42,365 nt of DNA from Candidatus Woesearchaeota archaeon (lineage in GTDB: Archaea > Nanobdellota > Nanobdellia > Woesearchaeales > GW2011-AR4). Positions 18,909 through 19,146 of this stretch are shown in pieces. The stretch is taken from NCBI GenBank assembly GCA_016177615.1, contig JACOUX010000032.1, positions 1-42,365 of the forward strand. The letters are read 5' to 3'. How positions within the stretch are numbered: position 1 is the stretch's first letter; each line of letters starts with the position of its first letter. A program made the position numbers and the translations under genes. Under the pieces are notes generated by a model, which saw only the letters and a list, made by a program, of their open reading frames with translations, did not search any database and was not told the origin of the DNA.

Positions 18909-19002
18909 TGCGCAGGCCGGGACTTTCGCCAAATTTCCATTTGATTCGAACCCGGGTCTCAGCCTTGGCAAGGCCGAATCTTAACCACTGGACTACCCGC
19001 GC
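18909..19002 (-). tRNA. tRNA-Gly(GCC) with 22-nt intron in the T loop
   Basis: Read on the minus strand from 19002. The 7-bp acceptor pairs GCGCGGG with CCTGCGC (one G-U). The anticodon arm CGGCC-TTGCCAA-GGCTG gives anticodon GCC (18967-18969). The T arm is CCGGG-TTCGAA, then 22 extra bases (18923-18944), then T-CCCGG. Removing them restores a normal 7-base T loop and 5-bp T stem. The pre-tRNA folds a bulge-helix-bulge: outer helix CCGGG/CCCGG, 4-bp central helix TTCG/CGAA, 3-nt bulges AAT and AGT. The mature length is 72 nt with the discriminator A; CCA is not encoded. Confidence 0.9.
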
Positions 19003-19058: not shown

Positions 19059-19146
19059 TGGGCCCGACCAGATTCGAACTGGCGACATTCACCTTTCAAA
19101 GATTTCTCCTGTAAGGGTGACGTCATAACCGCTAGACCACGAGCCC
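19059..19146 (-). tRNA. tRNA-Val(UAC) with 15-nt anticodon-loop intron
   Basis: Read on the minus strand from 19146. The acceptor GGGCTCG pairs with CGGGCCC. The D arm is GTC...GAC, the anticodon stem TCACC/GGTGA, and the T arm GCCAG-TTCGAAT-CTGGT. The anticodon is TAC (19111-19113). Fifteen extra bases (about 19095-19109) sit at the usual 37/38 intron position; removing them gives a 7-base loop and a 73-nt tRNA. The bulge-helix-bulge is weaker than in the neighbouring tRNA-Gly (G-U rich), and the exact boundary may shift by a base. CCA is not encoded. Confidence 0.88.

Follow-up and report, generated by a model that had tools for sequence, protein, structure and literature searches.

On the minus strand of the window (the whole 42,365-nt stretch of DNA analysed here), positions 19002–18909 encode a tRNA-Gly(GCC) with 22 nt inserted into the T loop between positions 59 and 60, which raises the question of whether this insert is an intron that can be spliced out and, if so, by which enzyme. 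From the gene, its predicted fold, and its relatives, we consider it highly probable that the insert is a genuine archaeal bulge-helix-bulge (BHB) tRNA intron at the non-canonical 59/60 site, spliced by a single-unit alpha endonuclease. This explanation is supported by the exact restoration of the tRNA upon excision, covariation in the central helix of the motif, the single copy of the gene, and the presence of a single catalytic endonuclease gene in the genome. Counting against it are an exon ligase (RtcB) search without a match, an inner helix that is one base out of register, the draft state of the assembly, and the expectation that an alpha enzyme would act poorly on relaxed motifs (PMC6379350, PMC4033280).

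The interrupted tRNA-Gly gene and the fold of its T arm

The gene runs from G1 at 19002 to the discriminator base A73 at 18909 and, by ARAGORN and Rfam, corresponds to a 94-nt precursor and a 72-nt spliced tRNA in which CCA is not encoded (75 nt once CCA is added). Its 58-nt 5′ exon (18945–19002, minus strand; tRNA positions 1–59, assigned by sequence and ARAGORN) carries the anticodon GCC at 18967–18969, and its 14-nt 3′ exon (18909–18922, minus strand; likewise by sequence and ARAGORN) extends from U60 to A73. Between them lies the 22-nt intron, TCAAATGGAAATTTGGCGAAAG (18923–18944, minus strand), delimited by sequence, T-arm fold, and a covariance model. The borders given in a preliminary description of this DNA proved exact, and its reconstruction of the mature arm can be read directly from the sequence: once the insert is removed, the T arm becomes CCGGG-TTCGAAT-CCCGG, comprising a perfect T stem (5′ strand CCGGG at 18951–18955 and 3′ strand CCCGG at 18917–18921, both on the minus strand, by sequence and fold) and T loop. 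The acceptor stem (GCGCGGG/CCTGCGC) is also complete in the spliced tRNA, and all stems are intact.

The intron conceals the gene from standard tools. ARAGORN returned no tRNA from the unspliced gene, reported only the neighbouring tRNA gene when run on the window, and called tRNA-Gly(gcc) once the gene was spliced in silico. The Rfam tRNA model scored the unspliced gene at 21.8 bits against a cut-off of 29 and missed it. Our own covariance model matched this T-loop intron at 44.3 bits, a score obtained with the sequence present in the training alignment. The neighbour, upstream of tRNA-Gly, is a tRNA-Val(TAC) (19059–19146, minus strand; sequence, Rfam, and fold) with an intact T arm and a short intron at the canonical 37/38 site, and this adjacency of tRNA-Val and tRNA-Gly is also present in relatives. 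The tRNA-Val intron is ~15 nt long with a poor central helix, and the copies in several genus relatives carry D-loop introns.

Folding of the 40-nt T arm gave an outer stem formed by the two T-stem strands, a 4-bp UUCG/CGAA helix, a 3-nt AGU bulge, and a hairpin. The central helix joins UUCG of the T loop (54–57; 18947–18950, minus strand) to CGAA of the intron (18925–18928, minus strand), both sides being assigned by the T-arm fold and covariation. The two bulges, assigned by the T-arm fold on the same strand, consist of A58, A59, and intron U1 on the 5′ side (18944–18946) and AGU, with the predicted cut after G, on the 3′ side (18922–18924). The 5′ bulge reads AAU if the inner helix begins at intron base 2; in the MFE fold, U1 of the intron instead forms a pair with G and the bulge shrinks to 2 nt (AA). 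The inner helix comprises 5–6 bp shifted one base out of register, and because of this displacement the motif is a BHB that is not perfectly strict. The BHB and 4-bp TTCG/CGAA helix of the preliminary description therefore stand, and its use of the word strict was slightly too strong.

Considered alone, the folding energy of the T arm lends weak support to the motif (z = −1.93 relative to shuffles, with 5 of 200 equally stable). A scanner combining T stem, acceptor stem, and 4-bp central helix in one criterion was applied to 594 kb of DPANN loci, where it identified 70 T-loop introns; it identified none in either 1.78 Mb of shuffled sequence or 338 kb of bacterial loci. Across 24 aligned T-loop introns, base 57 and its intron partner form A-U (11), G-C (9), G-U (2), or other (2) combinations, proportions that are biased upwards by the selection of these introns for a near-complete helix. 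Sliding and shuffling provide fairer controls for this set, and the whole-structure covariation score was 0.51, compared to 0.17 in shuffles and at most 0.15 with the partner slid. This covariation supports the central helix as a real RNA structure.

We propose that, in the precursor, T-loop bases 54–57 (UUCG) would pair with the intron CGAA rather than form the T loop, so that a bulge-helix-bulge would stack on the regular T stem. The alpha endonuclease encoded on contig C21 of this genome, which probably works as an alpha4 homotetramer, would cut each bulge between its second and third bases (AA^U and AG^U) to release the 22 nt, and joining of the exons would then yield a normal T arm. Cleavage and ligation of the tRNA-Gly(GCC) precursor in the cell, like the tetrameric form of the enzyme and the choice of ligase, are inferred from the sequence evidence, by which splicing is very likely.

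T-loop introns in the genome, the genus, and the phylum

The genome containing the window is a draft assembly of 67 contigs (99% complete, 3.6% estimated contamination). A covariance model of the T-loop-intron motif, run over this genome, returned 14 tRNA candidates with T-loop introns, 12 of them at E < 0.002, with several of the matches being training sequences. ARAGORN recognised all 14 after in silico splicing and only one before. The set includes Gly GCC and CCC, several Leu, His, Asp, Pro, and others; the name ARAGORN gave to the tRNA on contig C46 is probably wrong, owing to further introns in that gene. Further tRNAs of the genome are interrupted at 37/38 or in the D loop. We also noted long D-arm inserts in two tRNA genes (C5:16946–17080 and C62:38103–38259; L202 and L207), one of which ARAGORN calls Glu(CTC) and the other Ala(CGC) with an intron, so the intron habit of this genome extends beyond the T arm.

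The preliminary description had named an intact second tRNA-Gly(GCC) as evidence that would speak against splicing; in our search of the 99%-complete genome, none was found. Candidates for such a copy on C23 and at C43:25683 both lie outside tRNA genes, and a third at C43:2483 is a tRNA-Gly(CCC), itself with two introns.

By EF-2, the nearest named genome is Candidatus Woesearchaeota isolate NC_groundwater_207_Ag_S-0.1um_44_9 (86% identity), with identities of 59–62% to other Woesearchaeota and 49–52% to Aenigmatarchaeota. Given that the nearest EF-2 relatives are Woesearchaeota, we place the window in that group by sequence similarity, in agreement with the DPANN-like genome of the preliminary description. 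The tRNA-Gly(GCC) of the same isolate is also split at 59/60, by a 29-nt intron of different sequence.

T-loop introns are a lineage-wide habit, not a single oddity. Matches occurred in 92 of the 116 genomes sampled from the order (E up to 0.05) and in 152 of the 279 sampled from the phylum (E up to 0.001). A pattern scan of named genomes identified real T-loop-intron genes in eight DPANN records (four Woesearchaeota, one 'DPANN group', and three Aenigmatarchaeota), which account for all archaeal matches of the scan; its many bacterial matches were attributed to chance. The earlier statement that T-loop introns are mainly crenarchaeal holds for the older literature, but not for this DPANN phylum, throughout which they are common.

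Parsing of 87 T-loop introns gave 26 with a strict motif, 14 with a shifted inner helix, 32 without an adjacent inner helix, and 15 with a 3-of-4 central helix. As only contiguous pairs count in this classification, imperfect inner helices may be present in part of the 32, and chance may account for a few of the last 15. Some introns without an adjacent inner helix are only 13–14 nt long. Identical or nearly identical T-loop introns were also observed in two different tRNA genes of one genome on several occasions (L227 in G276, L168 in G109, and L038 and L171 in G038), including the 19-nt ACAAATAAAATTGTGAAAG, which is present twice in G276. Such duplicates suggest copying between tRNAs, a process reported for Thermoproteales.

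The tRNA-Gly locus itself varies within the genus. Syntenic tRNA-Gly genes, with ScpA, tRNA-Val, and 5-FTHF cyclo-ligase as neighbours on one or both sides, were found in three relatives (G002, G008, and G012). At this shared locus, the intron lies at 59/60 in the window (22 nt) and in G002 (34 nt), and at 53/54 with a CCCG/CGGG central helix in G008 and G012; excision of the differently placed T-arm intron restores the same tRNA in these orthologues. Among other members of the genus, the tRNA-Gly intron is at 53/54 in G011, G014, G016, and G006 (the last also with a 37/38 intron), G013 combines a 37/38 intron with a 13-nt 59/60 intron, G015 has a 37/38 intron only, G019 has a D-loop intron, and G001 and G017 have none. 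These mixed sites indicate that introns in the tRNA-Gly T arm have been gained, lost, or moved within one genus, and the intron in the window would be one of many gained and lost in Woesearchaeota-like T arms. The coexistence in one genus of tRNA-Gly genes interrupted at 59/60, interrupted at 53/54, or free of introns provides good material for studies of intron gain and movement. Separately, the tRNA-Gly(GCC) of G010 (L213) is ~16 nt short around 53/54 compared to its genus relatives, reflecting a broken gene or an assembly error.

The splicing endonuclease, the exon ligase, and rival explanations

An epsilon2 or alpha2beta2 endonuclease had been expected alongside such an intron; instead, the only endonuclease gene in the genome (on C21) encodes a 201-aa, single-unit alpha protein lacking both the CSL and the ASL. 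The protein comprises an N-terminal domain (PF02778) and a catalytic domain (PF01974), and it scores above the curated cut-off of the NCBI endA model, TIGR00324. By eye, the catalytic Y, H, and K lie at the motif positions in a sequence alignment; our conclusions rest on the PDB comparison, in which 3iey_A, the alpha subunit from N. equitans, was the best match (E 1.3e-33), followed by 1a79. At the crenarchaeal loop (CSL), the C21 protein shows a 10-residue gap compared to S. tokodaii 2cv8, and two loop residues of ARMAN-2 (ASL), including K161, also face a gap; both loops have been assigned roles in broad specificity (PMC6379350). No beta subunit was detected in the genome using PF02778, PF01974, and the C21 protein as queries, with nothing else matching at E up to 10. 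By these tests, a broad-specificity endonuclease of known type appears to be absent from the genome.

The same holds more widely. Exactly one PF01974 match was found in 106 of the 111 genomes of the order that have the enzyme, the longest endonuclease open frame being at most 301 codons, and when the two surveys were combined, 82 genomes of the order had both T-loop introns and exactly one endonuclease match. Alpha4 and alpha2 enzymes are described as cutting the canonical BHB only, with relaxed motifs needing an (alpha-beta)2 or epsilon2 enzyme (PMC4033280, PMC6379350). Many relaxed T-loop motifs beside a single-unit alpha enzyme therefore imply either a wider substrate range for this enzyme than has been described or a beta subunit that escaped detection. 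The accepted view is that non-canonical introns go with endonucleases having an extra subunit or loop, and the 82 genomes make that rule directly testable.

The joining step carries its own puzzle. RtcB is the known archaeal exon ligase, part of the host pathway and not a property of the intron itself, and a search for it (PF01139) found nothing in the 99%-complete genome, with control searches matching in all four archaea. As at least 14 spliced tRNAs are predicted here, either RtcB is missing from the draft assembly or another ligase acts. A wider reading, which we offer tentatively and hold to be slightly more doubtful than probable, is that Woesearchaeota-like archaea process many T-arm introns, including relaxed motifs and 13–14-nt mini-introns, with a single-unit alpha enzyme lacking CSL and ASL, and that at least this genome may ligate without a recognisable RtcB. 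If true, the rule that intron diversity requires (alpha-beta)2 or epsilon2 would be broken.

The intron could be real and nonetheless be cut by an (alpha-beta)2 enzyme with a beta subunit so divergent that it escapes detection, as in Nanoarchaeum equitans. The alpha subunit of that species is the closest solved relative of the C21 protein, and crenarchaeal beta subunits can be nearly undetectable from alpha (2zyz_A at only E 0.88). However, the C21 protein has a clear N-terminal domain beside its catalytic domain, the N. equitans beta subunit was detected from the C21 sequence at E 1.7e-16 with the rest of the genome remaining unmatched, and a lone PF01974 match is the norm across the order, leaving a hidden beta subunit unlikely.

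Explanations that dispense with splicing by a BHB endonuclease fare worse. Were the tRNA-Gly(GCC) dead or non-spliced, the insert would be retained or another tRNA would decode GGC/GGU, and the invisibility of the gene to standard tRNA finders would fit; we regard this as very improbable, given the lack of a second copy, the intact stems, the recurrence of the same architecture with covariation in many essential tRNAs, and the genus orthologues at the same locus with the intron elsewhere or absent. It is less credible still that the insert is what remains of a self-splicing group I intron or of another mobile element. While group I introns exist in Woesearchaeota, in rRNA genes (PMC6125680), 22 nt is far below a ribozyme core of hundreds of bases (a length that rules out a group I intron for this copy), Rfam is silent at the site, and the bases fit the BHB rule. 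We accordingly favour a BHB intron cut by the single-unit alpha enzyme as the explanation for this locus.

Comparison with known systems

The 53/54 and 59/60 sites were both listed in a 2014 review, in which Crenarchaeota and Nanoarchaeota were rich sources (PMC4090602). Like the non-canonical BHB introns of Crenarchaeota (especially Thermoproteales) and Nanoarchaeota, the introns described here share the site, BHB recognition, and precise predicted excision from the tRNA body. In contrast to them, the Woesearchaeota-like introns are mostly of a UUCR/YGAA T-loop form, many without an adjacent inner helix, and their hosts appear to lack the broad-specificity enzyme type. Regarding the enzyme, the alpha4 endonuclease of Methanocaldococcus jannaschii (1a79) is likewise encoded by a short single gene with N-terminal and catalytic domains, but that type is described as canonical-BHB-only (PMC4033280), whereas here a gene of this form, whose product is probably a homotetramer, occurs alongside many relaxed T-loop motifs. 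The (alpha-beta)2 enzyme of N. equitans (3iey), also from a DPANN archaeon, achieves broad specificity without an obvious CSL; the C21 protein differs in having the N-terminal domain, and a second subunit was not detected in its genome. The epsilon2 enzyme of ARMAN-2 (4fz2, 9w2k) is again from a DPANN archaeon with non-canonical introns, with three units there and one here.

T-loop introns are, then, of a known kind, and it is the host group, the scale, and the enzyme mismatch that merit follow-up. We found no paper in the open-licence literature describing tRNA introns in Woesearchaeota or DPANN, with an earlier description elsewhere being possible. These introns hide essential tRNAs, most of which are missed here by Rfam and ARAGORN, so an apparent lack of tRNA genes in many DPANN genomes is probably misleading. 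Lastly, in one Aenigmatarchaeota genome (CSMAG_3099, G039; L119 and L126), we noted a single-unit alpha endonuclease together with a 398-codon frame resembling the three-unit ARMAN-type enzyme, a pair that reflects either contamination or true co-occurrence.
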